DNA of 32,052 nucleotides from a virus, in IMG/VR virus record IMGVR_UViG_3300012920_007377, positions 1 through 32,052 of that record. The stretch is one strand, 5' to 3'. The notes under the pieces were generated by a model. That model made no database searches, was not told the DNA's origin, and saw only the letters and a program-made list of their open reading frames with translations. The position numbers and the translations under genes are program-made. This document shows positions 6,815 to 31,684 of the stretch, one piece after another. Within the stretch, counting starts at the first letter, position 1. Every line of letters starts with the position of its first letter.

Positions 6815-7315
6815 TTATTCGTGTTCACCACCAGGATCATCATGATCCAGCAAAACCTTTTCGCCATTTATCCACAAATTACGTCGAGTGCGACTTACAC
6901 TGTGATACCCAGGGCGCAGGCTAAAAAGTTTTGGATTCCTTTTTGCTGTTTCAAATGTACCTACTGTAACTGCAATAGCCGCGAGTACTATCATGTGTGC
7001 AATTGCGCTAACGCCAAACACAATGAAACTACTCAAATACATACTGAAAACAATACACCACATCCATGCTAAAATTTGCAATACCATATGGCGTGTACTC
7101 GTATCTGGAATATGTCGTAGTGGATTCCTGTCGGCGTCCATTACACTAGTCCAGCATTCGTATACCCATTCCTTCATACTGAAGACTCCTTGTTCAAATG
7201 TTACTTTTTTTGGATAATGCGCATCTGCGGTATCCCTAAAATCTATAGCATCATAAATGTTATAAAACTTTTGACTTACTTTGCTATCTCTAAAATACGC
7301 AGTTACTTTGTACAT
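6815..7315 (-). CDS. Two-span membrane protein, unknown
   Basis: 166 aa from MYKVTAYFRDS (GGAG site; a longer frame would begin inside tRNA-Leu). The N-terminal 80 residues are soluble (SKVSQKFYNIYDAIDFRDTAD...), then two adjacent hydrophobic spans (about 82-103 and 107-125), then a basic and acidic tail ending DHDDPGGEHE. The N-terminal part resembles small proteins that take in sequence-encoded metadata in no known way; no family recognised. Confidence 0.65.
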   Translation of the reverse strand: MYKVTAYFRDSKVSQKFYNIYDAIDFRDTADAHYPKKVTFEQGVFSMKEWVYECWTSVMDADRNPLRHIPDTSTRHMVLQILAWMWCIVFSMYLSSFIVFGVSAIAHMIVLAAIAVTVGTFETAKRNPKLFSLRPGYHSVSRTRRNLWINGEKVLLDHDDPGGEHE

Positions 7316-8498: not shown

Positions 8499-8608
8499 CA
8501 TATATACTTAGTTACAGATACCACGAGTTTCAAGGCCTGTTAATAAATTAGTTGAATGTGTGTTGAAAATGCCACACTTCTGTTGCTAGGCAGTGGCCGC
8601 CCCCTTAA

Positions 8609-8653
8609 TTATGCCGCTAGGGCGTAATCAGAAGGTGCAAAATTATCGTTTGC
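8609..8653 (-). other. tmRNA proteolysis-tag reading frame
   Basis: Resume codon GCA at 8653; encodes 14 residues ANDNFAPSDYALAA followed by TAA. With the alanine delivered by the charged tmRNA, stalled proteins would receive a 15-residue tag. ANDNFA is common to alphaproteobacterial tags; the middle PSDYA is a distinctive segment to compare with host tags. Confidence 0.92.
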
Positions 8654-8744
8654 AATTATAGTTTTTGACCAATAACGCAGTCATCCGGTTAACTCCACGC
8701 CTCTACTTACTACCTGTCGATCCTGGTTCGGCCCCATAAAAAAG

Positions 8745-8876
8745 CTATAAACCGTTTTTTAATATACGTAAAGCAACGGCTTTATTTTCTGTGTGTATAA
8801 GAATCCAACCTTTTTCGTCTTCTACGATATAGTATCTGACTCTTTTACTGTTTTCTTTTTCAATTAATCGTCTCAT
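8745..8876 (-). CDS. 43-aa open frame filling the tmRNA intervening segment
   Basis: MRRLIEKENSKRVRYYIVED then EKGWILIHTENKAVALRIL and KNGL. It starts seven bases after the encoded CCA of the acceptor piece and stops nine bases before the first base of the coding piece, so it occupies nearly all of the 148-base spacer that must be removed from the precursor. Codon choice and residue pattern look protein-like, but there is no clear ribosome-binding site. A longer frame beginning at 8948 would translate the acceptor piece itself and is not credible. Could be a real peptide or a chance frame. Confidence 0.4.
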   Translation of the reverse strand: MRRLIEKENSKRVRYYIVEDEKGWILIHTENKAVALRILKNGL

Positions 8877-8953
8877 AGCTTTTTGGTGGAGCCGTCGGGT
8901 ACCGCCCCCGAGTCCAGTATAGTGTTGAATTTGCTTCAACGTTAACAATACTA

Positions 8954-8982
8954 TTTATATAGTATTTTAACTATTTTGTCAA
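8954..8982 (-). promoter_or_regulatory. Strong promoter for tmRNA with overlapping late motif
   Basis: Minus strand TTGACA (8977-8982), 17-bp spacer, TATAAA (8954-8959). The same bases contain TATAAATA (8952-8959), an exact T4 late consensus, so the tmRNA could be expressed both early and late. Confidence 0.75.
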
Positions 8983-8983
8983 G

Positions 8984-9202
8984 TTACCACTTAACACTTA
9001 ACTTTTGCTTAAATGCTCTTTGACTTCTAATTGCGTTCATACATGAAAGTAATCGTCTGGATCTTTCCATTGGTTTGCCATAACCATTTTTAGTCTTGCT
9101 TAATTGATGTTGTTCGTTTTCTTTTGCAAATTCTTTACTAAGAATAGTTTCTATTAACATTAAATCTGAATCACTGAGATTCTGCAATTGTTGTGCCACC
9201 AT
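8984..9202 (-). CDS. Small basic protein, unknown
   Basis: 72 aa from MVAQQLQNLSDSDLMLIETI. The start at 9202 has an AGGAGA site and overlaps the upstream gene by 32 bases. N-terminal half acidic helix, C-terminal half strongly basic (GKPMERSRRLLSCMNAIRSQ and KQKLSVKW), suggesting RNA or DNA contact. No family recognised. Confidence 0.6.
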   Translation of the reverse strand: MVAQQLQNLSDSDLMLIETILSKEFAKENEQHQLSKTKNGYGKPMERSRRLLSCMNAIRSQRAFKQKLSVKW

Positions 9203-14799: not shown

Positions 14800-16854
14800 T
14801 CATTTGCTTGATGCGATAAAGACTCCGTTCCAGTCTTTGGGGAGGTCTTGCGTTTGCATGTAAGCACAACGTTCCATCCACATATCGTAATATCCATCAA
14901 TTTGTCCATCAAACTTTCCTTTGTTTAATGCACACAATTCGCTAGCACGTTTAAAGTCTTGTGCCTTGTAATGTGTGTGCATTAAATCATGTATTTCTCT
15001 GCTTTGTTCATATTGTGCTTTGTATTTTCCAGGATTGTCTAATACTGTGTATATACTAAGTCCAACACTTTTACCTTTTACTTGTAAGTCATCAACTTTA
15101 AGGAAAAAGAAATCATCTTTTGTATGTTTATATGTGGCTTCGCCTACTAGTAACACACATCCATATTCTTTACACTTGCTTTCGATACGGGCGGCTGAGC
15201 TGACGCTGTCCCCCAGTACATCATAACTGTGCCTTGCTGTTGACCCCATTTCTCCAATGTACCCAAGTCCGGAATTAATACCTGCGCCCATTCCAACTGG
15301 AGGCCTACCTTCGCTAGTAATCTTTTCATTAAATTTCTCCACTGCTTTTAGCATGTCGAGTCCACATTGCACCGCTGTTCGTGGGTGCTGTGGATCATCT
15401 ATAGGAGCATTGTGTATGTGCATACTTGCATCTCCTATATACTTAATTATCATTCCGTTGCTGTCTAAAACGGGCTGAGTAATAGCGTCCATGTATCCGT
15501 TCATAACTTTCGTCAATCCCTTTACATCATCTCCAAAACTTTCGCCCAGTGGTGTAAACCCACGCAAGTCACTAAAAACTATGCTTACTTCTTTTTTAAC
15601 CCCTTCTTTGATAAGTGCTGGATTTTCCTGTAGCATTTTAACTACAGTAGGACTTGCATAACCTGCAAACTGCTTTTTAATTGCTTGTTTCTGTAAAAAT
15701 TCATCTAAAAACTTTACAATGTAACGCAATAGTCCTACAACTACAATAAATGCAGCTGGTATAAATCCATCTACTAATATATTTTGTGTTTCAAACATAT
15801 AGTAACTTGTGTAAACAATACCGCCTGTACTGCCTACAAAAAATATTAATCCTATATAAGTCCAACGTGCTAATAATATTACCAGCAATCCTATTATTAC
15901 AATAGCGGCTAATTCTGCCCATGCTTCTGCATCTGGATGTCTGCTAATATTACTTTCATTAAATACTGTACCCAACAAAACTGCTTGCATTTCGTGTCCA
16001 TAAACACTACCTGCGGCTGTTGCAATTGGTTGTGTTGTTCCTGCCGCTGTTGGGCCTACAAATACAATACCTCCTTCAAAGTCGTCAGGTAAACTTAATG
16101 CACTAAGACTAGTACTACGCTGACTCCAGTCTATCCAAACACGCCCTAAATTATCTGTTTGTAAAAATCCATATTGTGGAATACGTAACTTGTCTACTCC
16201 TAGTGGATTTAATTTTATTTGGAAACTTGGATCTCCAGCAAGCACTCGCAACACTTCCATTGTAACATTAGGATACAAAGTATCTCCGCTGTTTAGCACA
16301 AGTGGTGCTCTACGTGTAACACCATCTAATTCAGGAAACGTGTTTATAATACCTGCGCCTACTGCTTTGTTTTCAAGTATAGGCACATTTGCAATAATAC
16401 CTGGCATACTTGGAATAAGGTCTCTGTACTGTGGATTAATAACTGCCGCACCAGGATTAATGGGCTCATTTTTACCTTGTGAACTACCTAGCATACTTAA
16501 AACAACAGGATAGTCTTGCATTAATTGTGCAAGTTCTAGATCCTGTCCACTGCGATCTGTTTCGCTCATTAATACATTAAACACAACAAGTCCTGCATTG
16601 CGTTCGTATAATTGTTTGATTAAATCAGCATAATCGCCACGTGGAAACGGCCACTGTCCATATTGATTTATTGTGGGTTCATCTATGTTAACAGTATAAA
16701 TGTTGTTTAACATAGGCTCTTGGTTCAATATTAGTGTATCAAAATATCTTAATCTTAGACTTTCTACAAAATTAAAGTTAGAATAGAATGTCCAACTAAG
16801 TAATACCAATGCAACTACACTGTATATTGGACTTAGTAAAAGTTTCTTTACCAT
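14800..16854 (-). CDS. CHASE2 sensor fused to class III adenylate-cyclase-like domain
   Basis: 684 aa. N-terminal span (10-26), extracytoplasmic CHASE2 domain (about 35-300: TVNIDEPTINQYGQWPFPR, GGIVFVGPTAAG, VYGHEMQAVLL), three spans (about 312-385), then a class III nucleotide cyclase (about 420-610). Metal aspartates D429 (VFSDLRGFT) and D475 (KYIGDASM), adenine-selecting K471 and D545, and R556 are present, but the transition-state Asn of the usual VNxAxR motif is Ser (VSSAAR, S552). Activity may therefore be reduced or altered. Last gene of the curli-like operon; FecR proteins and CHASE2 cyclases occur together in bacteria, so it may sense the surface module and signal through cAMP. AAAGGAA site. 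Confidence 0.88.
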   Translation of the reverse strand: MVKKLLLSPIYSVVALVLLSWTFYSNFNFVESLRLRYFDTLILNQEPMLNNIYTVNIDEPTINQYGQWPFPRGDYADLIKQLYERNAGLVVFNVLMSETDRSGQDLELAQLMQDYPVVLSMLGSSQGKNEPINPGAAVINPQYRDLIPSMPGIIANVPILENKAVGAGIINTFPELDGVTRRAPLVLNSGDTLYPNVTMEVLRVLAGDPSFQIKLNPLGVDKLRIPQYGFLQTDNLGRVWIDWSQRSTSLSALSLPDDFEGGIVFVGPTAAGTTQPIATAAGSVYGHEMQAVLLGTVFNESNISRHPDAEAWAELAAIVIIGLLVILLARWTYIGLIFFVGSTGGIVYTSYYMFETQNILVDGFIPAAFIVVVGLLRYIVKFLDEFLQKQAIKKQFAGYASPTVVKMLQENPALIKEGVKKEVSIVFSDLRGFTPLGESFGDDVKGLTKVMNGYMDAITQPVLDSNGMIIKYIGDASMHIHNAPIDDPQHPRTAVQCGLDMLKAVEKFNEKITSEGRPPVGMGAGINSGLGYIGEMGSTARHSYDVLGDSVSSAARIESKCKEYGCVLLVGEATYKHTKDDFFFLKVDDLQVKGKSVGLSIYTVLDNPGKYKAQYEQSREIHDLMHTHYKAQDFKRASELCALNKGKFDGQIDGYYDMWMERCAYMQTQDLPKDWNGVFIASSK

Positions 16855-16891
16855 TAATGTATTCCTTTCGGCAACGGTTTACATTAAGTAT

Positions 16892-17212
16892 TTACCATTT
16901 AAATTCGTACCCAAAAACAACTCCTACGTTATCTTCTCCCTCTATTGCAGGTGCAATAAAGAAGTCATCATAAGTTGCTCTCAAGTAAGGCAACACTGGT
17001 GCTGTTGTATAGCCTGTTACTGCGCCTGCTTCCAGACCAATTTCTCCAAACTCCCAGCGTTTGCCTCCGTAAAAACTTACTGCATTTTCACTATTATAGT
17101 ATGCACCTGCTATTGCGCTGTTCTCGGTATAACGCACGTGCGGGTGTATAGCATTATAGTCGTTGTTAAAACCCAAATGTAAACTTAGTGCTAGTCCTAG
17201 TTCAATCATCAT
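16892..17212 (-). CDS. Outer-membrane-barrel-like small protein
   Basis: 106 aa, MMIELGLALSLHLGFNNDYN. Short hydrophobic start without a clear cleavage site, then alternating strands (IHPHVRYTENSAIAGAYYNS, VSFYGGKRWEFGEIGLEAGA, FIAPAIEGEDNVGVVFGYEF) and final KW. Aromatic-ended last strand suggests an outer-membrane beta fold. Overlaps the 48-aa gene by 11 bases. Related-looking proteins occur in cyanophages, from memory. Role in the curli-like operon unknown. Confidence 0.62.
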   Translation of the reverse strand: MMIELGLALSLHLGFNNDYNAIHPHVRYTENSAIAGAYYNSENAVSFYGGKRWEFGEIGLEAGAVTGYTTAPVLPYLRATYDDFFIAPAIEGEDNVGVVFGYEFKW

Positions 17213-17348
17213 AATTTACTGGATTAAACATTTTGTCCCATCTAGGTCCAACTGCTTGCCAGTATTCCTTACTACTATCACTGTATACATTTACACCGTA
17301 TGCTACAAAAAATACAAGAATTAAACATATAACACTACCCTTTAGCAT
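17202..17348 (-). CDS. 48-aa single-span membrane protein
   Basis: Starts MLKGSVICLILVFFVAYGVN, one span (5-20), then SDSSKEYWQAVGPRWDKMFN and PVNYDD. Overlaps the upstream secreted-protein gene by 14 bases and the downstream gene by 11. The conserved-looking tail with WxxVGPRW and NPV suggests it is real. No family recognised. Confidence 0.55.
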   Translation of the reverse strand: MLKGSVICLILVFFVAYGVNVYSDSSKEYWQAVGPRWDKMFNPVNYDD

Positions 17349-17751
17349 CTCTATTATCCCAAGGTGCATTTTCGTAACATCCTGCAGGTAGAGTATCTTT
17401 ATAACTTACTCCTGCTTCGAACCCGCCGGGTGTTTGTTTAATGTATGCACTGTCAAACGGCATTACCCGTGGCTTACCCCAACAGCGATTCATACTCTGT
17501 CCAGGCACTCTGTAACGTGCATTATGTTTTAAGAAGTCTCGTAACTCTTTTAAGTTTTGGGCATTTACTGCCACTCTAAAATCGCTAGCACAAGCCGCGG
17601 CTTTTCTAAAGTCAAAACTATCGAAATTATCGACGCTATAGCCATACTTGGCCAAGCAAAGTTTTGATGCCTCGTTGTTGCTTAACGATTCTGCTGATGC
17701 TGAGGCCACTCCTAACCCTAGCATTAGCACTGTCGCTAATATTGTTTTCAT
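17335..17751 (-). CDS. Secreted Cys-containing protein in curli-like operon
   Basis: 138 aa with signal peptide MKTILATVLMLGLGVASASA cut before ESLSN. Mature part has four Cys (KLCLAKYGYS, AAACASDFRV, SMNRCWGKPR, PAGCYENAPW) likely to pair in the periplasm or outside. It does not resemble CsgE or CsgC. Position between the second curlin-like gene and the CHASE2 end of the operon suggests a role in the same surface module. Function unknown. Confidence 0.65.
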   Translation of the reverse strand: MKTILATVLMLGLGVASASAESLSNNEASKLCLAKYGYSVDNFDSFDFRKAAACASDFRVAVNAQNLKELRDFLKHNARYRVPGQSMNRCWGKPRVMPFDSAYIKQTPGGFEAGVSYKDTLPAGCYENAPWDNRDAKG

Positions 17752-17776
17752 TTTTTTCCACTCTCACTCTTTCTGT

Positions 17777-18559
17777 TCAGTTTTGTACTACGGATACTGA
17801 ACATCCGCCAAATGTTTGACAATTTTGTGTCAAACTATAACTCATAGCACTGCTAGTGCTACTTTGTGTTAAACTTAAATCTGTTCCATAATTACCATCT
17901 AATGTAATTGTTGCTGTATGCCCATATGATTTCTTTTGATGTACAAACACATTGTTATCGTCATTGTTAATAGTCAAATCTAGTGTTTTGTCCTGGTTTG
18001 CTTCTTGCATTACATGTACATTGTTGTCATTACCAGTTATATCTACATCCATATTATGATCGCTTATGCTGTTTTGTGAACGTTGGGATAGTTTTATACT
18101 ATTGTCATTACCATTAACAGACAATTCCATATTATGTCCTCCGTGTTCAACGTTATCATACAACCAATCGTTTGCTGTAATCTTATATCCTTGTCCTAGT
18201 TCCATACTATTGCCTGTTCCTGTTACATCTAAGTCCATTGCGTCTGCATTGCAAAGGCTACCATTATGACATTTTTGTTTTGCAAGCATTGTATTATTGT
18301 TGCCGTCTATAGATAATTCTATTGATGCACCATCTGTTTCTTGGTTAAGTGTAACATCAATATTATCGCCATCTAAACTAACAGGTGCTGTACTCGTGCC
18401 TATAGTGTTATCTTCTCCATCTTGTGTAATAGATAAATTTAGATCGTCCCCTACTTGGTTAATGTAAATATCATTGGAATAAGTTATCGTTGGAACAGCC
18501 ATCATCACACTGAGTAATACTAATCTGATTATTAGTGCTGACCCCCAATTTGTATCCAT
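17777..18559 (-). CDS. Curlin-repeat protein 2 (CsgA/B-like)
   Basis: 260 aa from MDTNWGSALIIRL; the start is uncertain because the frame is open further upstream inside the FecR gene (18586), and MMAVPTITYS at 18505 is also possible. Signal peptide to about TITYS, then mature start NDIYINQVGDDLNLSITQDG. At least seven degenerate repeats with the pattern xLxVxGNDNxxxxxQ (for example LSVNGNDNSIKLSQ and VDITGNDNNVHVMQ), close to the curlin strand-loop-strand Q-x-G-x-N-x5-Q. Mature N-terminus is nearly the same as that of curlin protein 1, so the two are paralogues. Probable amyloid fibre or surface-strand subunit exported by CsgG. Confidence 0.75.
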   Translation of the reverse strand: MDTNWGSALIIRLVLLSVMMAVPTITYSNDIYINQVGDDLNLSITQDGEDNTIGTSTAPVSLDGDNIDVTLNQETDGASIELSIDGNNNTMLAKQKCHNGSLCNADAMDLDVTGTGNSMELGQGYKITANDWLYDNVEHGGHNMELSVNGNDNSIKLSQRSQNSISDHNMDVDITGNDNNVHVMQEANQDKTLDLTINNDDNNVFVHQKKSYGHTATITLDGNYGTDLSLTQSSTSSAMSYSLTQNCQTFGGCSVSVVQN

Positions 18560-19625
18560 AGATTTTAAATTCACTTTGTTGTACATTTAATTCATATCCA
18601 TATTCATCATTCATACGTACTCTTACGTAATTGTTTCCTACTCTATCTTCTCTTTCAAATATCCAGGTTTGTCCATCTTTTTGTAAGTTAATACCAGTTT
18701 CTGCATCAAAGCCTATTGTTGCTCTGTTATTTTGCATAAGAATTGCATTTTGTCTTAAAAGTTCGTCCTCAAATAATCTGCGTAATGCTTCATTTAATTG
18801 ATCTAATATATCGTATAATAGATCTCCTAGTCGCCAGTCCATTTCATCTAGTGCAGTAACCCATAAACTTGCATCATCTAACCAACTGTCACTATCTAAT
18901 AAGTCCACATCTAGCCAATCCAAGCCCAAAAAGTCTGCACGTTTTGCATGCCTATATATAATTTCTTCTGCTTCATCATAAGGATTACGTTTGCGTAATA
19001 TAATCAGATGATTTAGTAATTTTTCGTCTACGTCAATAAGTAGTGGAGGAGAAGGTGGCTGCCAGCGAGTGGTTGTCTGAGTGGATTGAAAGGCTTGATT
19101 CATTACCACTGCCCCAACATCGGTCATCACTTCGATCTCACCTACGTAACACATACCATTTGTGTCACAGCTGGGCAACAGAGTAATCATACTACCACCC
19201 ATCTCATCCACTACCATGACAAAATCCGTACCCCTTACACCGATCGTTGCACTGGGAGTTTGGATTTTGACGTTCTGGCGGCTACGCTTTGCTATTTGTC
19301 CACTAGCATACCTTATACCGCCCAACGTTGCTTTAATTGATAAATTTCCTTTTCCGCTGTTGGGATCATAAACAAATTCATCAATTGTTAGTCTTGCATG
19401 TTCAGTTAAATCTACTCTAGTATCGTCCATAAAATCTAATCGCATGGTGCCTTTGGCTGTAACGGCTGTGTCTTGCATTTCAATACCAACACCATCGCTT
19501 CCAGGAATAGTATCCTTTCCACGTTCGATAGCACCGCTACCTGTCATTTTGCCAATATTACCCGCTGTATTGGCGAACACGGGCGGCACCCATAACAATA
19601 AGATTGTGACGATAACCCAGCGCAT
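18471..19625 (-). CDS. FecR-domain exported protein
   Basis: 384 aa with signal peptide MRWVIVTILLLWVPPVFA. FecR domain at about 40-170: GSDGVGIEMQDTAVTAKGTM, RVDLTEHARLTIDEF and TPSATIGVRGTDFVMVVDEM, the last being the family signature. Two Cys lie in the region after it (PSCDTNGMCYVGE). The C-terminal 190 residues are acidic and then strand-rich, unrecognised. FecR domains normally relay envelope signals; here it sits between two curlin-like genes, one-base TAATG overlap with the first and about 90 bases overlap with the second. Confidence 0.85.
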   Translation of the reverse strand: MRWVIVTILLLWVPPVFANTAGNIGKMTGSGAIERGKDTIPGSDGVGIEMQDTAVTAKGTMRLDFMDDTRVDLTEHARLTIDEFVYDPNSGKGNLSIKATLGGIRYASGQIAKRSRQNVKIQTPSATIGVRGTDFVMVVDEMGGSMITLLPSCDTNGMCYVGEIEVMTDVGAVVMNQAFQSTQTTTRWQPPSPPLLIDVDEKLLNHLIILRKRNPYDEAEEIIYRHAKRADFLGLDWLDVDLLDSDSWLDDASLWVTALDEMDWRLGDLLYDILDQLNEALRRLFEDELLRQNAILMQNNRATIGFDAETGINLQKDGQTWIFEREDRVGNNYVRVRMNDEYGYELNVQQSEFKIYGYKLGVSTNNQISITQCDDGCSNDNLFQ

Positions 19626-20335
19626 TAGTCGCTCTGGGTTATATCTACGTCTTGACTATCTCCGTCAAACGTTGCATTTACTGTTGCATCGTTAACACCA
19701 CTTTGATCTATATCATATGTGCTACCGCCGCCAGTAATGTCAAGTATTACAGTATGTCCAGCACTGTCTCCATTACCATCCATGTCAATGTTTAATGTAT
19801 TACCTTCATCACTATTTGCACTTGTTGTAGCTAAACTATTTGCATTGTTCATTACAACTGTAAGTACTGCACTTGTACCGTCAATATCAGAGTTAATAAT
19901 ATTGTTATCACCTGTTACAGTAAAACTAACTGTTGCACTATCTGCATCCTCATTTTCTCCAATATCAAAGTCAAATGTGTTGTCATTACCAGTTGTTGTT
20001 ATGTTTAATGTTACAGTATCACAATCTCCTGTAGAAGTAGAACTACACTGTAAATCTACTGTGTTAGTGTTACCTGTAAATTGCCAAGTACCAGTGTAAT
20101 CTGTGCCTTTAATTGTTGCCACTATTTCGTTAAAATTACCTGTTTGTGTAATTGCAAAAGTCATATCATCACCAGCCAAAGTCATATCTGCCTGTGATGT
20201 TCCTACTTTGTTATCTTGCCCGTCTTGCGTAATATCTAAATCTAAAGTATCGCCAATTTGATCTATATAAATCTCGTTTGCCAGTACACTTGATCCAGAC
20301 ATTAGCATGAGCATTATTGTTAATATTCTAAGCAT
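19625..20335 (-). CDS. Curlin-repeat protein 1 (CsgA/B-like)
   Basis: 236 aa with signal peptide MLRILTIMLMLMSGSSVLA. Mature part starts NEIYIDQIGDTLDLDITQDG, then repeats such as FAITQTGNFNEIVATI, LNITTTGNDNTFDFDI, SFTVTGDNNIINSDI and ending DVDITQSD. The Q-x-G-x-N and I-x-Q spacing is that of curlin repeats, though degenerate and Asp-rich. Follows csgG after nine bases. Confidence 0.75.
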   Translation of the reverse strand: MLRILTIMLMLMSGSSVLANEIYIDQIGDTLDLDITQDGQDNKVGTSQADMTLAGDDMTFAITQTGNFNEIVATIKGTDYTGTWQFTGNTNTVDLQCSSTSTGDCDTVTLNITTTGNDNTFDFDIGENEDADSATVSFTVTGDNNIINSDIDGTSAVLTVVMNNANSLATTSANSDEGNTLNIDMDGNGDSAGHTVILDITGGGSTYDIDQSGVNDATVNATFDGDSQDVDITQSD

Positions 20336-20344
20336 TTTAGCTCT

Positions 20345-21151
20345 CTACTTTCTGAACTTCCAAAGTCCTTTTCTTTCACCTTCGTATACTAGTTCAACAA
20401 TTCCTGCTTCAATTGCAGCTCGCACTGCATAATTGACTGGTTCATTAACTGAATATCCAGCTTCTGTCTCTACTAGTTTTGTTCCCATGTCGAGGAACTT
20501 AAAAACATCTGCACCGCTTCTATGACTGGCTATTGTCTTTTGCGTGGCAATGCTCATTAATACTCTACCTGTACTGACGCTTACTAGCCTCATACTAACA
20601 GTTACAGTATCTACTCGATACTCAGTCTGAGTACCAATTCCTAAATAACGTGCGCCTGCACCTCCTACTACGTTGTTGCTATCGTATCCTACTATTCCAC
20701 CTTCTAGAATAATACCTGCAAACAACATAGGCTTTAACGGTGTAGGCCCTCTTTTAATTTCTTTTTCATAAACTTCTCGTGTATTACGAATCAATTGACG
20801 TTCTTTAATCAAATGATCCATTCCAATGCGTTCTACAACTTCGAACCAGCCTTCGTTACCTACTGTTTGTAGGCCCTGAATAACCCATACTTCTGCACCT
20901 TGCGTAACTGCACTTGATAGGTTTGCTATTCTGTCGTTGGGTTTTCGTTGTCCAGTTTTGTCAGTAAATCCATATACAGCAATTGTAATCTTTTTGCCTT
21001 CTATAGGAGGAACTGCACTCAACATGTGTTTAACAGGACTATCCTGCCTAGTAGGCGGTTCGCCTATAGGAACACTACGATCTTTGAAATAACTTATGTT
21101 ACTACATCCTGACAGTAGTATAACTGTCAACAACGCAAATAATGTACGCAT
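20345..21151 (-). CDS. csgG: Curli secretion channel lipoprotein CsgG
   Basis: 268 aa (E. coli CsgG is 277). Lipobox LLSGC with acylated Cys16. Conserved CsgG blocks: VYGFTDKTGQRKP, GWFEVVERIGMDHLIKERQL, AGIILEGGIVGYDSNNVVGG, GARYLGIGTQTEYRVDTVTV, LVSVSTGRVLMS, SIATQKTI and a C-terminal GLWKFRK. The known role is a nonameric outer-membrane pore that exports curlin subunits. TAATG overlap with csgF. Confidence 0.94.
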   Translation of the reverse strand: MRTLFALLTVILLSGCSNISYFKDRSVPIGEPPTRQDSPVKHMLSAVPPIEGKKITIAVYGFTDKTGQRKPNDRIANLSSAVTQGAEVWVIQGLQTVGNEGWFEVVERIGMDHLIKERQLIRNTREVYEKEIKRGPTPLKPMLFAGIILEGGIVGYDSNNVVGGAGARYLGIGTQTEYRVDTVTVSMRLVSVSTGRVLMSIATQKTIASHRSGADVFKFLDMGTKLVETEAGYSVNEPVNYAVRAAIEAGIVELVYEGERKGLWKFRK

Positions 21152-21615
21152 TAAAAATTAAACTCCCCAGCACCTGGGATAGTGATAGTGGTTGTAGTTC
21201 CTTCGTCGTCTATAATTTCAAGGGTAATGCTTCCTGTGGTTTCGTCTTTGATCCATGTAATAGTAGAACCTTCAATTTCTGCTGTTCCTGTTGTTGCACA
21301 ATTTGTACTACAATCAGCAAACATTGCATCCACCATCTGTTTAGATAGTGTAGCATAAATTCTAGACTCAACGTTTTTAAGGAATTTGTTTAAAGTAGTA
21401 TTTTCCAGCTCACGCTCAATACGTGCTAGCTCAGACTTTCGCGCATCTGCTAACTCTTTTTTGCGATTAAACTGTAACTGTTCTACACTAAGCACGTGTG
21501 TACTATATCCATTACCGTAATGGAATGCTGGACTTTTAAACTGCCAACTCATCTCACTATGTGCTGATGTAACCACTAGGCAGAAACCTAGCGTCAATAA
21601 TACTAATTTTTTCAC
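21151..21615 (-). CDS. csgF: Curli assembly factor CsgF
   Basis: 154 aa beginning at a GTG codon with GGAGAG upstream. Signal peptide MKKLVLLTLGFCLVVTSAHS, then SWQFKSPAFHYGNGYSTHVL, the counterpart of the CsgF N-terminus that plugs into the CsgG pore. A helical middle (LQFNRKKELADARKSELARI) and a beta C-terminus (EGSTITWIKDETTGSITLEI) follow. First gene of the operon, with CTAAATA 18-24 bases upstream. CsgE is not found in the window. Confidence 0.9.
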   Translation of the reverse strand: MKKLVLLTLGFCLVVTSAHSEMSWQFKSPAFHYGNGYSTHVLSVEQLQFNRKKELADARKSELARIERELENTTLNKFLKNVESRIYATLSKQMVDAMFADCSTNCATTGTAEIEGSTITWIKDETTGSITLEIIDDEGTTTTITIPGAGEFNF

Positions 21616-24074: not shown

Positions 24075-24839
24075 ATGGACTTAGATGGCTGGTGTTTTGA
24101 CGACACCAATTTTAATTATAAAAAGGCACACTGGCTAGCAAAACTAGCAGGAATGGCATATGCACAACCGCTAACGGCACGTAAGGCATTAAAAGAAGCA
24201 GGCATTACGGAAAACAAATATTTTGACAAAGAAGGCGCTCAGGCATATGGCATAGAAAAGAATGGTATCATTATCCTTGCATTTAGAGGAACTGAACCTA
24301 CACAAGCCTCAGATTTATTGGCTGATGCCAAAGCATGGCATAAAAAATCACAGTATGGCGGAAGTGTACATGCTGGATTCAGAGGCGAAATAGATAAAAT
24401 ATGGCCACAAATAGAAGAATGGTTAAAGGCACACACAGGCAAACAAATATATGTAACAGGACATAGTCTGGGAGCGGCAATGAGTACACTTGCTACAAGC
24501 CGTTTACCAGCAGGCACAATATGTTATAACTTCGGTTCTCCAAGAGTCGGCAGTCCAAGTTTTAGTAAAGAGTTCGACAAAAAATATGAACTACATCGTT
24601 TTGTAAACAATAATGATGCAGTATGTCGTGTTCCACTTTGGGCAATGTTTTTTAGACATGTTGGAAAACTACACTATATAAACACTTACGGAAATATTAG
24701 AAATGCTACGCCTTGGCAACGCTTTAAAGATAGATTTAGAGGATATAGACAGGCCTGGAAGAAAGGACAAGTGTTTGATAGTTTGTACGACCATAGTATG
24801 GTTGCGTACACAAAACGTATTGGAAATTTTAATGAGTAA
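24075..24839 (+). CDS. Class 3 lipase-family hydrolase
   Basis: 254 aa, cytosolic-looking (no signal peptide). Class 3 lipase pattern: IIILAFRGTE near 65-74, VHAGF at 98-102, nucleophile motif TGHSLGAAM with Ser131, NFGSPRVGS at 152-160, Asp181 in NNNDAV and His240 in YDHSM, giving a Ser-Asp-His triad. Known members cut acylglycerols or phospholipids. Paired with the membrane protein before it and a Met/His membrane peptide after it; membrane damage or lipid recycling late in infection is a reasonable guess. Confidence 0.88.
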   Translation: MDLDGWCFDDTNFNYKKAHWLAKLAGMAYAQPLTARKALKEAGITENKYFDKEGAQAYGIEKNGIIILAFRGTEPTQASDLLADAKAWHKKSQYGGSVHAGFRGEIDKIWPQIEEWLKAHTGKQIYVTGHSLGAAMSTLATSRLPAGTICYNFGSPRVGSPSFSKEFDKKYELHRFVNNNDAVCRVPLWAMFFRHVGKLHYINTYGNIRNATPWQRFKDRFRGYRQAWKKGQVFDSLYDHSMVAYTKRIGNFNE

Positions 24840-25050
24840 ACTCAAAAACTATAAAGCGGGCATTTTGTTCGCAATACTAGGCGCAATATTTTACTACATG
24901 GATATGGCACCCGCAATGGATCACATGGGCCACGCAACACATGGCAATGAATTATTAGGCATAGGAGAAATGACCTGGATGTGGTTTACTATGGCAATAG
25001 TCCATTTCTTTTTAAAGGACTGCCACTGTAAACACTGTAAGGGGGAATAG
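24832..25050 (+). CDS. Met/His/Cys-rich small membrane protein
   Basis: 72 aa from MSKLKNYKAGILFAILGAIF; ATG overlaps the lipase stop region by eight bases. Span 1 (about 9-25), then MDMAPAMDHMGHATHGNELL rich in Met and His, span 2 (about 47-62), then DCHCKHCKGE with three Cys and two His. Both segments look able to bind Cu or Zn. No family recognised; proximity to the pseudoazurin gene may be meaningful. Confidence 0.65.
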   Translation: MSKLKNYKAGILFAILGAIFYYMDMAPAMDHMGHATHGNELLGIGEMTWMWFTMAIVHFFLKDCHCKHCKGE

Positions 25051-25538: not shown

Positions 25539-25763
25539 TTAACCGCTTACGTATATGCCTTTGTTGGGCCTATACCAGTGTTTTTGGTTGTGTAATCTGC
25601 CCAATAAGTCTCGGATCTGTGTTGCTTCTTCTGCAAGTTTAGCTACATCTCCTTCGCCTTTTAATATACGCATGCCTCTACGGCCTGCTTTTGCAGTTAA
25701 TGCTCTTTCTATTATTTCTATATCTTCTACAGACAAGTTAAAGCTATTATTGGGCTTTGCCAT
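25539..25763 (-). CDS. Small helical protein, unknown
   Basis: 74 aa, MAKPNNSFNLSVEDIEIIER, then TAKAGRRGMRILKGEGDVAK and EEATQIRDLLGRLHNQKHWY. AGGGGA site; TAATG with the pseudoazurin stop. No family recognised. Confidence 0.65.
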   Translation of the reverse strand: MAKPNNSFNLSVEDIEIIERALTAKAGRRGMRILKGEGDVAKLAEEATQIRDLLGRLHNQKHWYRPNKGIYVSG

Positions 25764-26191
25764 TACAGTTCCCCTAAAAGGTCTTTTAGCTTTTTCTTGC
25801 TTTTGCCACGTACTTTAGCTTTGCTAATATCGTTCATTGGTACTTCGCCGTCTTGTGCTACTGTAACAATACCAATCATACCCATTGTTGCATGTGGTGT
25901 ACATACATATAGATATACGCCTGGTGTGTCAAAAGTAATTGCTACTTCTTTACCATTTTTGGATTTTTTAGGAAGATCCCATCCATCTGGACCTTTAATA
26001 AACTGGACATTGTGTCCCTTTGAAGTTGGCACCCATGTGATTGTATCGCCAACATTAATTCGGGCAATATCTTCACTGTACACCATCTTAGCACCATCAT
26101 CACGCTTGTTTAGCATGTCAATAGTCATATCTTCGGCATAGGCTGTACCCATACCCAATGCAATTAAAATTGCCGCTAGTGTAAATCTCAT
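25763..26191 (-). CDS. Pseudoazurin-like type 1 copper protein
   Basis: 142 aa with signal peptide MRFTLAAILIALGMGTAYA. Copper ligands are all present: His60 (KGHNVQF), Cys97, His100 and Met105 in YVCTPHATMGM. The sequence DTITWVPTSKGHNV and GVYLYVCTPH are typical pseudoazurin. A C-terminal extension with Lys-rich KAKVRGKSKKKLKDLLGEL is a feature of the family. Known role: periplasmic electron carrier, for example to nitrite reductase or oxidases. A phage copy may keep electron flow going during infection (inference). ATGA overlap with the upstream small protein. Confidence 0.9.
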   Translation of the reverse strand: MRFTLAAILIALGMGTAYAEDMTIDMLNKRDDGAKMVYSEDIARINVGDTITWVPTSKGHNVQFIKGPDGWDLPKKSKNGKEVAITFDTPGVYLYVCTPHATMGMIGIVTVAQDGEVPMNDISKAKVRGKSKKKLKDLLGEL

Positions 26192-26412
26192 TTTTTGTCC
26201 TTTACATTTAAGTTATAGGGCTCATATTGAGCTCCGTTGTAACCTGAACCAGTTGCATTAGGTCCAGTTTCTACTCCACTATTGCATCCAACAACTACTA
26301 CTAATAGTCCAAATACAATAACGTAGCACGTATACTTTGTTATTTTCATAAAAAGTGCAAACGTGCGTTCAGCCTCTTCTAATGCGGCTTGTTTTACGTC
26401 TAACTCCCCCAT
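26188..26412 (-). CDS. Small single-span protein, aa3-oxidase subunit IV-like or lipoprotein
   Basis: 74 aa from MGELDVKQAALEEAERTFAL (GAGGAG site; 13-base overlap with upstream gene). One span, about 26-42, after a charged helix ending ERTFALFMKITKY, which is the layout of the short bacterial cytochrome oxidase subunit IV. After the span comes VVVVGCNSGVE, which looks like a lipobox; an internal ATG (26349) would make a lipoprotein precursor but lacks a ribosome-binding site. Both readings are tentative. Confidence 0.6.
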   Translation of the reverse strand: MGELDVKQAALEEAERTFALFMKITKYTCYVIVFGLLVVVVGCNSGVETGPNATGSGYNGAQYEPYNLNVKDKK

Positions 26413-26594
26413 CCAGCAAACTCCTCTTTGTCTTTGTTTTGCATTCTTACATGTCGTGTAGGCAAAGTATATTCGTGGATGCCTATACAAGTGATGTTAG
26501 GAGAGTTTTTTAGCCATTGTTCTTTTTTAGCATCTGTTTCAAAAAACATAGTAAAAGCATCTCCGTTGTTTGTGTTTAAAAAATTATAATTCAT
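26400..26594 (-). CDS. Small conserved phage protein, unknown
   Basis: 64 aa from MNYNFLNTNNGDAFTMFFET; start overlaps upstream stop as ATGA. Ends with LPTRHVRMQNKDKEEFAGWG, a block reminiscent of cyanophage proteins. No family recognised. Confidence 0.62.
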   Translation of the reverse strand: MNYNFLNTNNGDAFTMFFETDAKKEQWLKNSPNITCIGIHEYTLPTRHVRMQNKDKEEFAGWGS

Positions 26595-26767
26595 TCTTTT
26601 AATCCAAAACAAGGTAAAAGTGGTGTCATTTTACAATACCTAGCATACTCGCTAGGTCCTACCATTATATATGTCATACCCCAAGGCACAACTAAAATAA
26701 AGAAAGTGAGTATAGCAAACGCATACCCTAGTCCTTTAGTAGTACAATATTGTGTATTATGCTGCAT
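26591..26767 (-). CDS. 58-aa single-span membrane protein with four Cys
   Basis: Starts MQHNTQYCTTKGLGYAFAIL; span about 14-30, then MVGPSEYARYCKMTPLLPCF. The 11-base overlap with the upstream gene and the ATGA with the downstream gene place it in the operon. RGAA-type site AGAGAA upstream. No family recognised. Confidence 0.55.
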   Translation of the reverse strand: MQHNTQYCTTKGLGYAFAILTFFILVVPWGMTYIMVGPSEYARYCKMTPLLPCFGLKE

Positions 26768-26990
26768 TTTCTCTAATATCCTTAATTACATTTTGATTTT
26801 CTGGCAAACAGAGTATTGCTGTCATGGGATCATTGAATCCTGCTACTGCTATAGTTTCTATTGCAAGTACATCTATATTTTCTGGATTGTTAACATACTT
26901 TACACACTCTTGTTTGCTGTCAAACTTTAGTGTTTTAATTACAAAAGGATCTCCTATTGTAAGTGTAATGTATATAAACCATTCAATCAT
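26757..26990 (-). CDS. Small exported protein of the MW-leader type
   Basis: 77 aa, MIEWFIYITLTIGDPFVIKT; hydrophobic leader, then FDSKQECVKYVNNPENIDVL and AILCLPENQ. Cys-x-(11-40)-Cys layout shared with the 21870 and 22073 proteins. ATGA overlap with doxX stop. Confidence 0.62.
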   Translation of the reverse strand: MIEWFIYITLTIGDPFVIKTLKFDSKQECVKYVNNPENIDVLAIETIAVAGFNDPMTAILCLPENQNVIKDIRENAA

Positions 26991-27394
26991 GTTCTGTTGC
27001 CTCTAAGAGCAAAAAATAATCCGCCTACCCATAATAGTACGTGTAAATTATCATATAGTATAACGTCCCAAAAACTTGCTGGCTCTCCGACCCAAATTAC
27101 ACCTGTCATAATACTACAAATTGTAATACCGCTAAAACGTGTAATTATGTCCTGTAGTTCTTTTAGTTTTTTCCATATTACTGCGCCGCCAAGTAATAGT
27201 CCTATACCTGCACCTACTTCGCCCCAGGCCGCAAACCACCATACAATGTAAGGTAAATCAAAACTTTCAGCACCTTCCATTGTTACGGGTAATTTACTAA
27301 TACCTTGCTGTAAGAATACAATTGCAAGTGGTATCCTTAGTAGCCAGTGGCTCATGCAAAATTCAGGTATTTTAGTATATATGTTTTTTAACAT
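26987..27394 (-). CDS. DoxX-family membrane protein
   Basis: 135 aa from MLKNIYTKIPEFCMSHWLLR with an AAGGA site; the longer frame from 27439 lacks one. DoxX signature IPLAIVFLQQGISKLPVT near 24-41; spans at about 18-32, 55-80, 98-110 and 116-130 give the usual four-helix fold. DoxX proteins are linked to thiosulfate oxidation, thiol or quinone chemistry and oxidative stress. Start of an operon leading to pseudoazurin. Confidence 0.85.
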   Translation of the reverse strand: MLKNIYTKIPEFCMSHWLLRIPLAIVFLQQGISKLPVTMEGAESFDLPYIVWWFAAWGEVGAGIGLLLGGAVIWKKLKELQDIITRFSGITICSIMTGVIWVGEPASFWDVILYDNLHVLLWVGGLFFALRGNRT

Positions 27395-27496: not shown

Positions 27497-27553
27497 TTAC
27501 TTGCTAGGTTTACCGTTGATGATTTCTAGTTCTTCATCTGTATAAGGCCACAT
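27497..27553 (-). CDS. 18-aa peptide MWPYTDEE-type
   Basis: MWPYTDEELEIINGKPSK, TAATG overlap with the preceding stop. The MWPYTxEE opening is, from memory, a recurrent N-terminus of very small alphaproteobacterial and phage proteins. Short, so tentative. Confidence 0.4.
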   Translation of the reverse strand: MWPYTDEELEIINGKPSK

Positions 27554-27762
27554 TAAACTTCTCCTCTAAGTTGTTTAATCTCCACCATTAAAGCCTTTGC
27601 TTCTTCTTGATAACCAAGTCTGGCTAGTTCTGCGGCCGCTCTTGAACGACCAGCAATTTCTCCTGATGCAACTACATATGCTATAAATGTTATAAATGCA
27701 TTGCGAATCAGTAAACAGGGTTTACAAATAATATTCCATGATGTCATTGCAATTGCGCTCAT
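27553..27762 (-). CDS. Small protein of the DUF1127-neighbour type
   Basis: 69 aa from MSAIAMTSWNIICKPCLLIR; TAATG overlap at 27762. Amphipathic middle IRNAFITFIAYVVASGEIAG, then RSRAAAELARLGYQEEAKAL. The RAAAELARLGYxEEAK block resembles proteins encoded next to DUF1127 in roseobacters. Function unknown. Confidence 0.7.
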   Translation of the reverse strand: MSAIAMTSWNIICKPCLLIRNAFITFIAYVVASGEIAGRSRAAAELARLGYQEEAKALMVEIKQLRGEV

Positions 27763-28019
27763 TACACCCACCCCTTTAAATTATCATTTGCTTCTGTTGT
27801 ATTTTCTTCTTTTTCATTCCAAATGCCATTGCTAATTGCAGTGATATCGCTACGGTAAATACCTATATCCTGTAATTCAGCATCTGATAGACTTTGTAAT
27901 TGATTGTAAGTTTCTCGTTGTAATCTACGTTTTTGTAAATTTTGTTGGACATTTTTTAGCCATTGTCCGAAACTGGCCCAGCTGAATATATCAGCTACTT
28001 TCATTGCCATTGCAGTCAT
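27762..28019 (-). CDS. DUF1127 protein
   Basis: 85 aa, AAGGAGA site. C-terminal DUF1127 motif: RRLQRETYNQLQSLSDAELQ then DIGIYRSDITA. Small DUF1127 proteins in alphaproteobacteria bind RNA and modulate RNA decay and sRNA action in stress. Starts an operon; a long structured leader RNA precedes it. Confidence 0.87.
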   Translation of the reverse strand: MTAMAMKVADIFSWASFGQWLKNVQQNLQKRRLQRETYNQLQSLSDAELQDIGIYRSDITAISNGIWNEKEENTTEANDNLKGWV

Positions 28020-29366: not shown

Positions 29367-30485
29367 CTAAGTTGTTCTTAAGGTTGTTGATTCGTAAGTA
29401 CGATTAAATTGATTTGCAACTTGTACAAAGGTTGTACACTTACTCAAGTGCTTGAGTTTAATTGCGCCTGCATATGTACAAGTGCTACGTACACCGCCTA
29501 GTATGTCTTGTAGTGTTTTGCCTACTGCACCTCTATAAGGTACAAGCACTTCTCTACCTTCACTACTGCGGTATTCTTTTAGTCCACCAAAATGTTTTTC
29601 GTTTGCGGCATTACTACTCATGCCATAAAACTGTACAAATTTTTGCTCTTCAAAATAAGGAATAAATGTTCCCTCTGGTGTTTTATATGCTCCGCCTGTG
29701 GCAATATGTTTTGTAACAATAGATCCGCCACCTTCATCGTGTCCAGCAAGCATGCCTCCAAGCATTACAAAATCTGCACCTCCAGCAAAAGCCTTTGCCA
29801 CATCACCAGCGCAAGTACAACCGCCGTCAGCAATAATATGTCCGCCCAATCCATGCGCCGCATCGGCGCACTCAATAACCGCACTAAGTTGGGGATAGCC
29901 CACCCCAGTCTGTATGCGAGTCGTACAAACCGACCCTGGTCCGATTCCGACTTTGACGATGTCTGCTCCATTTAAAATTAACTCCTCAGTCATTTCGCCT
30001 GTAACTACATTACCTGCAATAATTACAACATCAGGATATTGTTCACGAAATTGTTTTACAAAAGCAACAAATCGTTCGCTATAACCGTTTGCTACATCAA
30101 TGCATACATACTTTAGTTTTTCTCCAACTTGTTCGTATACATCTCTAAATTTTGCATGGTCTCTGTCTTGTATACCAATACTCATTGCAACATAGTCTGT
30201 GCGTTCTGGTATATCACTATCAAAGTATGCAACTAAATCTTTTACACTAAGTGTTTTTACTAAACAAGTAAACACTCCGCCAGTTGCTAAAAAGTCTCCC
30301 ATTTCCATTGTGCCAACACCGTCCATGTTGCTAGCCATAATAGGAATACCTTCATAGTCTTGTTTACTGTTACGGAAAGTAAAACGTCTTTCTAATCGCA
30401 CTTCTTTACGACTTCCTAGTGTGCTACGCTTGGGTCTAATCAAGACGTCACTATAGTCCAGCTTCTGGTCCTGTTCTATTCTCAT
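29367..30485 (-). CDS. guaC: GMP reductase (IMPDH/GMPR family)
   Basis: 372 aa; E. coli GuaC is 347. IMPDH/GMPR barrel signatures: [25 protein letters not shown], the catalytic loop [12 protein letters not shown] with Cys187, [43 protein letters not shown] and the FYGMSS motif. No CBS domains. The last three features and the Cys position favour GMP reductase (GMP to IMP with NADPH) over IMP dehydrogenase. A phage enzyme would rebalance purine pools from degraded host RNA. Follows clpS after four bases. Confidence 0.88.
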
Positions 30486-30489
30486 GGGT

Positions 30490-30795
30490 TTACTCTTTTT
30501 CTAGATCAACTGTTAAGTCATGACCCTGATTACGTGAGTCGCTTAACGTTTCAGCACACTTTTGTTCTGCTATCTCATAAGGATAAACGCCAGCGGTGCC
30601 TCTACCGGCTTGGTGTATTGTAAGTGTAATGTCTTTTGCGGCATCAAAATCGTGCCCAAAAATACGCATTAAAACTTCAATTACATAATCCATAGGTGTA
30701 GTGTCATCATTATGTAACACCACCTTCCATTTATCAGGGGGTGCTAAATTAATAACAGTGTTGGTTCTTTTTTCAATTGCTACATCTACAGTCAT
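30490..30795 (-). CDS. clpS: ClpS adaptor protein
   Basis: 101 aa; host ClpS are about 100-110. Core motif [20 protein letters not shown] (27-46), then [20 protein letters not shown] and [11 protein letters not shown]. ClpS binds N-degron substrates through the DD/His pocket and hands them to ClpA; the Asp pair and the downstream His are present. The N-terminal 20 residues, which block ClpA processing, are also present. Weak ribosome-binding site. Followed by guaC after four bases. Confidence 0.93.
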
Positions 30796-31420: not shown

Positions 31421-31684
31421 TTAATATTTTTTGCTTTCTACGTTTGGTACGCCTGGCAAACCTTCTTTAGTTGCTTTTTTAATCCAACGTTTACGAGCCG
31501 CCGCTTTTGCTTTTTTTCGTTTAAGGCTGGGTTTTTCATAATGCTGACGTTCTCTTAGCTCTTTGAGAATACCTTCATTATTAACCATTTTCTTTAACCT
31601 GCGTAATGCACGGTTTACGTCATTGTTATGCACTTTAACAACCATGCCGTTTTCAGGGTCTTTTTTGTGTGCTTTTCTACTCAT
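31421..31684 (-). CDS. rpsU: Ribosomal protein bS21
   Basis: 87 aa, the alphaproteobacterial length. Body MVVKVHNNDVNRALRRLKKM, then LRERQHYEKPSLKRKKAKAA and RKRWIKKATKEG. bS21 sits at the mRNA exit of the 30S subunit near the anti-Shine-Dalgarno sequence and is one of the ribosomal proteins known from phage genomes, including pelagiphages, from memory. ATGA overlap with infC upstream couples the two. Confidence 0.95.
   Translation of the reverse strand: MSRKAHKKDPENGMVVKVHNNDVNRALRRLKKMVNNEGILKELRERQHYEKPSLKRKKAKAAARKRWIKKATKEGLPGVPNVESKKY

Follow-up and report, generated by a model that had tools for sequence, protein, structure and literature searches.

Gene content of the overlapping run

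The stretch of DNA analyzed here (the window, 32,052 bases) is the IMG/VR virus record IMGVR_UViG_3300012920_007377, and our subject is a run of seven overlapping minus-strand genes at positions 25539-27394, which encodes a DoxX-family membrane protein, a pseudoazurin-like copper protein, a peptide resembling subunit IV of aa3-type cytochrome c oxidases (cox4L), and the small proteins s77, s58, s70, and p74 (Table 1). Successive genes from DoxX to p74 overlap by 4, 11, 4, 13, 4, and 1 nt, and the chain of DoxX, oxidase-IV-like peptide, and pseudoazurin described by an earlier, sequence-only reading is indeed present. Beyond this run, the window contains a permuted alphaproteobacterial-type transfer-messenger RNA (tmRNA), a phage-type topoisomerase subunit, and a curli cluster; on account of these features it was taken to be part of the genome of a large marine phage of T4-like type, and the record is probably incomplete. 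One end of the window, searched as nucleotide sequence against phages, had no match. Regarding expression signals, the T4 late promoter TATAAATA had two matches in the window, below chance expectation and neither near the operon, and scanning for sigma-70 sites and terminators revealed nothing clear there. Median pairwise dN/dS (the ratio of non-synonymous to synonymous substitution), used as a crude measure of constraint, was 0.20 for pseudoazurin, 0.11 for DoxX, 0.37 for cox4L, 0.33 for s58, and 0.78 for s77, the last being weakly or not constrained by this measure.

The copper protein matched the Pfam family Copper-bind (PF00127) with 66.1 bits (cut-off 21.2; E 4e-18). Its top PDB profile matches were pseudoazurins, the best being 3tu6 (E 2.8e-31), and the NCBIfam equivalog TIGR02375 was also the best family, spanning 115 of 116 positions, yet at 93.7 bits it stayed under its cut-off of 109.85; the name pseudoazurin is used here in the sense of pseudoazurin-like by sequence. 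The type-1 copper ligands H60, C97, H100, and M105 occur in every one of 28 aligned relatives, in agreement with the earlier description of a pseudoazurin with all its copper ligands intact. In a tree of 97 rows, built on few columns and poorly resolved, the phage pseudoazurins group beside marine alphaproteobacterial ones without forming a single supported clade. Both pseudoazurin and DoxX have bacterial homologues. When 80 pseudoazurin loci of the bacterial collection were considered, one also had DoxX, on a contig with phage-like genes (L085). L096 and this contig, found in Neomarinimicrobiota and Muricauda metagenome-assembled genome bins, carry phage-type pseudoazurin with phage-like genes and are likely phage contigs misplaced in those bins. 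Denitrification, with pseudoazurin serving a copper nitrite reductase, was considered and set aside, no such enzyme being seen among the open reading frames of the window.

DoxX matched Pfam PF07681 with 34.1 bits (cut-off 23.6; E 4.4e-8) in a family alignment of 23 members, and its AlphaFold2 model (pLDDT, the predicted local distance difference test, 81) has main helices at residues 16-32, 49-70, 75-98, and 108-131, so that both the family score and the four membrane helices expected of DoxX were found. Close bacterial copies (E 3.4e-55 or better) were present in 3 of the 12 genome bins searched, and in a fourth bin the match was one phage contig. In the bacterial loci inspected (L238-L240), no module partner adjoins DoxX. 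Foldseek returned nothing below E 0.001 with the DoxX model. The best VIA-align match was the assembly factor NACHO/TMEM35A (9h9e_B; Z 9.8, root-mean-square deviation 3.7, 110 residues aligned), from which no function was read, since helical bundles reach such Z values by chance; a profile search of PDB sequences gave weak reaction-centre matches only. In archaea, DoxX proteins have links to thiosulfate oxidation, and in mycobacteria to defence involving thiols and superoxide. For the DoxD/DoxA partner subunits of the thiosulfate:quinone oxidoreductase (DoxDA), no module protein matched in the Pfam search, and no dedicated search was made.

Against Pfam COX4_pro_2 (PF07835), the cox4L peptide scored 22.0 bits in its ATG form and 21.3 bits in a TTG-extended frame (cut-off 22), and 19 of 22 members match this family at E <= 1, the best at 5e-6. 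In a profile search of PDB sequences, five of the six matches at E <= 10 were subunit IV of aa3 oxidases. Judged from these matches, aa3 subunit IV is the only protein that cox4L consistently resembles; among the other short-span module families, a PF07835-type match was found in 0 of 13 members of s58 and 0 of 20 of the two-span protein tm2. A native PF07835 gene is present in 81 of 97 Pelagibacterales genomes. The subunit IV sequences inspected there stop at the membrane span, whereas cox4L extends about 30 residues past a nearly invariant Cys near the span end (kept in 22 of 22 aligned members). In 289 alphaproteobacterial genomes neither cox4L nor s58 was found, in a search whose positive control recovered 26 of 41 phage records for cox4L and which had no such control for s58.

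Table 1. Coordinates of the module genes in the window and in a sister phage that carries oxidase genes (locus L176).
Gene	Sequence	Position	Strand	Description
DoxX	window	26987-27394	minus	first gene of the overlapping run; 135 aa four-helix membrane protein
s77	window	26757-26990	minus	small protein with two invariant Cys; frequent module companion
s58	window	26591-26767	minus	one-span peptide, pattern YCTTKGLG...C...C; core module member
s70	window	26400-26594	minus	small, soluble-looking; module companion
cox4L	window	26188-26412	minus	aa3-oxidase subunit-IV-like one-span peptide, 74 aa, phage-specific tail
pseudoazurin	window	25763-26191	minus	predicted exported type-1 copper electron carrier
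p74	window	25539-25763	minus	small, soluble-looking; module companion, TAATG coupled
tm2	window	6815-7315	minus	apparent two-span protein with GGEHE end; about 18 kb from the module
COX2	L176	2123-2863	same as module	
CtaG	L176	2838-3371	same as module	
COX1	L176	3368-5026	same as module	
tm2	L176	5102-5530		followed by s70
cox4L	L176	5777-5992		
DoxX	L176	5992-6405		followed by s77 and p74
pseudoazurin	L176	7298-7735		

Linkage of the gene set and its electron carriers

Relatives of the four core genes are encoded in 312 (pseudoazurin), 370 (DoxX), 547 (cox4L), and 431 (s58) IMG/VR stretches; none of the four had a match in 50,697 phage records, a set from which records near the window were perhaps left out. 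Linkage was counted on up to 80 loci from each scan (redundant), with anchors clustered at 90% identity and 2.5 kb needed on each side, a filter that retained 29 of 80 loci for pseudoazurin, 27 of 75 for DoxX, 25 of 77 for cox4L, and 16 of 71 for s58. At least one other core gene was located on the same strand within 2.5 kb in 24 of 29, 21 of 27, 25 of 25, and 13 of 16 of these loci, respectively. The sequence-only reading would have been contradicted by a pseudoazurin standing isolated in relatives, which the first of these counts shows it does not, as DoxX, cox4L, or s58 accompanies it. When neighbours were counted blind to family (excluding spurious opposite-strand frames of pseudoazurin itself), DoxX (19/29) and cox4L (17/29) were the commonest around pseudoazurin. 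The gene order is variable, with 41 cases of pseudoazurin-DoxX versus 21 of DoxX-pseudoazurin and 34 of cox4L-DoxX versus 30 of the reverse, and the four core genes are co-oriented in 374 of 374 distinct gene pairs. Such shuffled order in constant company is expected from shared function, and the recurrence of these genes together in many phage contigs argues that the set is not due to chance; it is a permuted, always co-oriented module of marine phage contigs. A DUF1127 protein and its partner s72, whose overlapping genes occupy 27553-28019 (minus), also occur near pseudoazurin in 12 to 13 of the 29 loci, indicating some general synteny too.

Regarding the small companions, s58 has one apparent span and three Cys invariant in all 13 aligned members, has no Pfam or PDB family, and turns up no farther than 2.5 kb from cox4L in 22 of 25 non-redundant loci of that gene. 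Two Cys are invariant in the nine-member alignment of s77 (9/9), s70 yielded an alignment of 10 members, and p74 has 12 aligned members and accompanies pseudoazurin, at a distance of no more than 2.5 kb, in 10 of its 29 non-redundant loci. Homologues of tm2 occur in 219 of the collected loci; counted with redundant loci included, 165 of these have it no more than 2.5 kb from cox4L and 166 from s58. The protein is a module part in other phages and is displaced in the window. The earlier description of several one-span peptides with Cys pairs is therefore accurate in part: s58 has the span and three Cys, s77 has two Cys, and cox4L has one, while s70 and p74 look soluble. Pfam, PHROG, and NCBIfam searches gave no convincing family match for s58, s70, s77, p74, or tm2. 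As regards the earlier concern that the small proteins might belong to unrelated structural families, s77, s70, and p74 match no family.

In other phages the copper protein is missing, and a class I cytochrome c takes its position beside DoxX. Five of 36 long module records contained cytochrome c, and in three of these it directly adjoins DoxX with pseudoazurin missing. A scan with class I cytochrome c gave 51 viral loci, several with short flanks; the 49 usable anchors formed 13 clusters, of which 7 had DoxX within 2.5 kb and 8 had DoxX, cox4L, or s58. All 11 distinct cytochrome c-DoxX pairs overlap or lie at most 30 nt apart. None of the 51 cytochrome c loci contained pseudoazurin, and it was not found in 17 long records that carry the cytochrome, 13 of which came from the scan and 4 via other genes; a single pseudoazurin record (G428) had a cytochrome match, which was weak and distant from the module. 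Among 52 distinct DoxX loci, 35 had pseudoazurin, 2 had cytochrome c, and none had both. By these sequence data, class I cytochrome c substitutes for pseudoazurin in other phages. This swap favours electron transfer over copper supply, because an iron-haem protein replaces a copper protein; where the sequence-only reading had offered electron flow or copper supply, the first option is well supported by the swap and by the oxidase genes described below, beyond what the window by itself could reveal, and the second is not favoured.

Oxidase genes in a sister phage and the role of the module

COX1 was found in 1 of the 36 long module records, the 134 kb contig IMGVR_UViG_3300027859_000890, referred to here as the sister phage. 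On one strand it carries COX2-CtaG-COX1 (E 1e-45, 2e-56, and 9e-159, respectively) followed by tm2-s70-cox4L-DoxX-s77-p74-pseudoazurin, which places tm2 directly 3' of COX1 and s70 between COX1 and cox4L; its s77 copy is 80% identical, and s58 was not found in this phage. COX1 can be aligned end to end with its Paracoccus counterpart, as can COX2 with that of Rhodobacter, and the segments that bear the metal ligands are conserved. The run from COX2 to cox4L is repeated at about 97% nucleotide identity on a contig of a second metagenome, which makes a chimera less likely. The sister contig also encodes a clamp loader, ThyX (thymidylate synthase), PhoH, a virion protein, and an endolysin. The curli cluster and the greater part of the module are common to it and the window (CHASE2 cyclase 70%, CsgG 67%, and DoxX 84% identity). 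The COX1 of the sister phage has 80-82% identity with marine Rhodobacteraceae sequences, 62-65% with those of other alphaproteobacteria, and 42-44% with the remaining matches, including SAR11, which suggests that this phage has a Rhodobacteraceae host. This oxidase gene run ties the small module genes to the aa3 enzyme, and it is this gene context that points to a possible membership of cox4L in the assembled oxidase.

A scan for COX1 and a second one, with a COX1 alignment as query, returned the same six contigs. Four of these IMG/VR contigs (L438, L439, L440, and L441) have COX1 of another type, at 49-60% identity, with the module absent; phage-like genes surround COX1, one of the four has COX2, and L439 has a tail-fibre gene nearby. 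They represent a possible second origin of phage oxidase genes. COX1 also had 12 matches in named phage records, none of which was counted: 10 were in contigs that look bacterial (names, sizes, and a cyoB annotation), and the other 2 were a short match of 118 residues in Flavobacterium phage 6H.

Taken together, we consider it rather likely that these phage genes form a respiratory module which supplies the aa3 oxidase of the host with electrons and modulates it. Assuming expression during infection, pseudoazurin would be exported to the periplasm and would take electrons from the upstream chain of the host to the aa3-type cytochrome c oxidase, its presumed docking partner, while cox4L would sit in the membrane like subunit IV and join the oxidase, where its presumably periplasmic tail could favour the phage carrier or stabilize the enzyme. 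DoxX may act as a small four-helix membrane partner in electron delivery or complex assembly, and s58 as a further membrane partner. The effect would be that oxygen respiration is kept, raised, or redirected while host gene expression fails, providing a longer-lasting energy supply for phage production, and the module probably lets the virus keep or steer host respiration during infection. A bolder proposal, which we put forward only tentatively, is that a large group of marine T4-like phages installs a terminal respiratory step of its own, with cox4L replacing host subunit IV and its added periplasmic tail causing the oxidase to prefer the phage carrier (pseudoazurin, or cytochrome c in other phages), and with DoxX and s58 as further subunits. 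If this were true, respiration in infected cells would run through a branch built by the virus, which in the most complete case supplies even the core of the oxidase.

Several observations weigh against a module that feeds the host oxidase. DoxX families have varied functions, and 15 of the 52 distinct DoxX loci have neither carrier within 2.5 kb. The module occurs together with COX1 in one phage lineage only (two contigs), and inspection by eye of the open reading frames of the 32 kb window fragment revealed no COX1 or COX2. The cox4L score just reaches the Pfam cut-off without exceeding it, and taken singly the PDB matches of the peptide are weak (E 0.76 to 2.2). Most cox4L members also have a lipobox-like V-x-[G/S/A]-C sequence, with G, S, or A preceding the Cys in 98 of 104, so the peptide might be a lipoprotein instead of an oxidase subunit.

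Among the alternatives, a role in copper handling or oxidase assembly, in which pseudoazurin stores or passes on copper and DoxX and cox4L help to load the copper centres, appears unlikely. CtaG is a copper chaperone for the oxidase, and in the sister phage its gene is flanked by COX2 and COX1, which would suit such a role, as would the match of the DoxX model to the assembly factor NACHO/TMEM35A, albeit at a Z value reachable by chance; the replacement of pseudoazurin by cytochrome c, an iron protein, fits instead a shared role as electron carrier, and copper supply is the less likely reading compared with electron feeding. Protection against redox or oxidative stress, with DoxX and the Cys-rich peptides handling envelope thiols or superoxide and pseudoazurin serving them, could draw on the mycobacterial and archaeal links of DoxX and on the three invariant Cys of s58, but it leaves unexplained the subunit IV likeness of cox4L and the presence of COX2-CtaG-COX1 in the same run, and we hold it to be improbable.

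It is a shade more improbable still that cox4L has no relation to the oxidase and is a small lipoprotein of the outer membrane, leaving only pseudoazurin and DoxX as respiratory. The lipobox-like sequence and the score of the longer frame below the Pfam cut-off agree with this explanation, whereas the subunit IV match takes in a conserved part ahead of the span, the Cys does not occur in 2 of 106 members of a larger set and follows a K in 6 of 104, and the gene lies within the oxidase gene run. We give the least credence to mere co-location of unrelated accessory genes gathered in a hypervariable part of the genome. The DUF1127 gene and its partner recur near pseudoazurin as such gathering would predict; yet the unbroken co-orientation of the core pairs despite permuted order, the tight overlaps, the carrier swap, and the oxidase operon all speak against it, and the module feeding the host oxidase is the explanation we retain.

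Neighbouring features and relation to known systems

Other features of the window were also recorded. A Met/His/Cys-rich membrane peptide at 24832-25050 (plus) has a conserved MDH, GEMTWMWFTMAIVHFF, and a C-x-C motif, which give it a metal-binding look. The sequence-only reading had mentioned it as lying near the set; we rejected it as a module part, as none of its nine viral relatives has a module family within 4 kb. The curli cluster at 14800-21615 (minus) comprises a CHASE2-cyclase, FecR, CsgG, and CsgF, together with a secreted-looking protein at 19625-20335 that matches the curlin repeat below threshold (E 0.0014). According to PMC9004378, csgA/csgB are missing from Melnitz and pelagimyophages, whereas this match suggests that the window phage may have its own curlin. 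The permuted alphaproteobacterial-type tmRNA at 8518-8986 (minus) has a long tag, ANDNFAPSDYALAA, and an alpha_tmRNA occurs in 24 of the 36 long module records; a search for the host through the phage tmRNA tag gave no match to any of 16 tags read in 18 loci. Finally, genes for a phage-borne ribosomal protein S21 (31421-31684) and ClpS (30490-30795), both on the minus strand, adjoin an IMPDH/GMP reductase-domain gene (29367-30485).

To our knowledge, there is no demonstration that phages of marine heterotrophic bacteria control respiration in the way that cyanophages control photosynthesis. If the module does feed the host oxidase, virus infection would act directly on marine oxygen consumption, given that the module is present in hundreds of viral contigs. 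With its interchangeable carriers and, in one case, the oxidase core, it would also provide a clear test of what infected cells need energy for, and the module offers a likely context for several gene families without assigned function. No earlier report of the module was found in the full-text literature, in a search short of most subscription papers and preprints.

The electron-transport genes of cyanophages include plastocyanin petE, PTOX, and NDH, and the petE family corresponds to PHROG phrog_515, which the window pseudoazurin matches at E 4e-8. Plastocyanin in cyanophages is covered in PMC9636769; as in those phages, the window has a phage-borne copper electron carrier of a kind thought to sustain host energy metabolism. 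In contrast to the cyanophages, the carrier of the window is a pseudoazurin, its presumed partner is aerobic respiration (aa3 oxidase) instead of photosynthesis, and DoxX, cox4L, and s58 are added. The window also resembles the pelagimyophages and Melnitz-type methylophages (PMC7029224 and PMC9004378) in its marine origin, CsgG/CsgF curli genes, and permuted tmRNA, and Melnitz has a tm2 homologue, whereas pseudoazurin and DoxX are unnamed in the main text of those two papers.

Regarding the oxidase itself, virome reads of cytochrome c oxidase subunit I in marine viruses were claimed earlier in PMC3474794 and PMC3877843; those are reads, one of cbb3 type and possibly contamination, in contrast to the aa3 COX2-CtaG-COX1 run found here in phage contigs with the module. 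The phage gene vAlaS for haem synthesis has been proposed to sustain haem-based respiration in infected cells (PMC11480375), which concerns cofactor synthesis, whereas the present module would supply an electron carrier and oxidase parts. Viral nirK and norB are virus-borne enzymes that use a terminal electron acceptor, in their case in the denitrification of oxygen-poor water, and the passages on them (PMC8115048) do not name pseudoazurin or DoxX.

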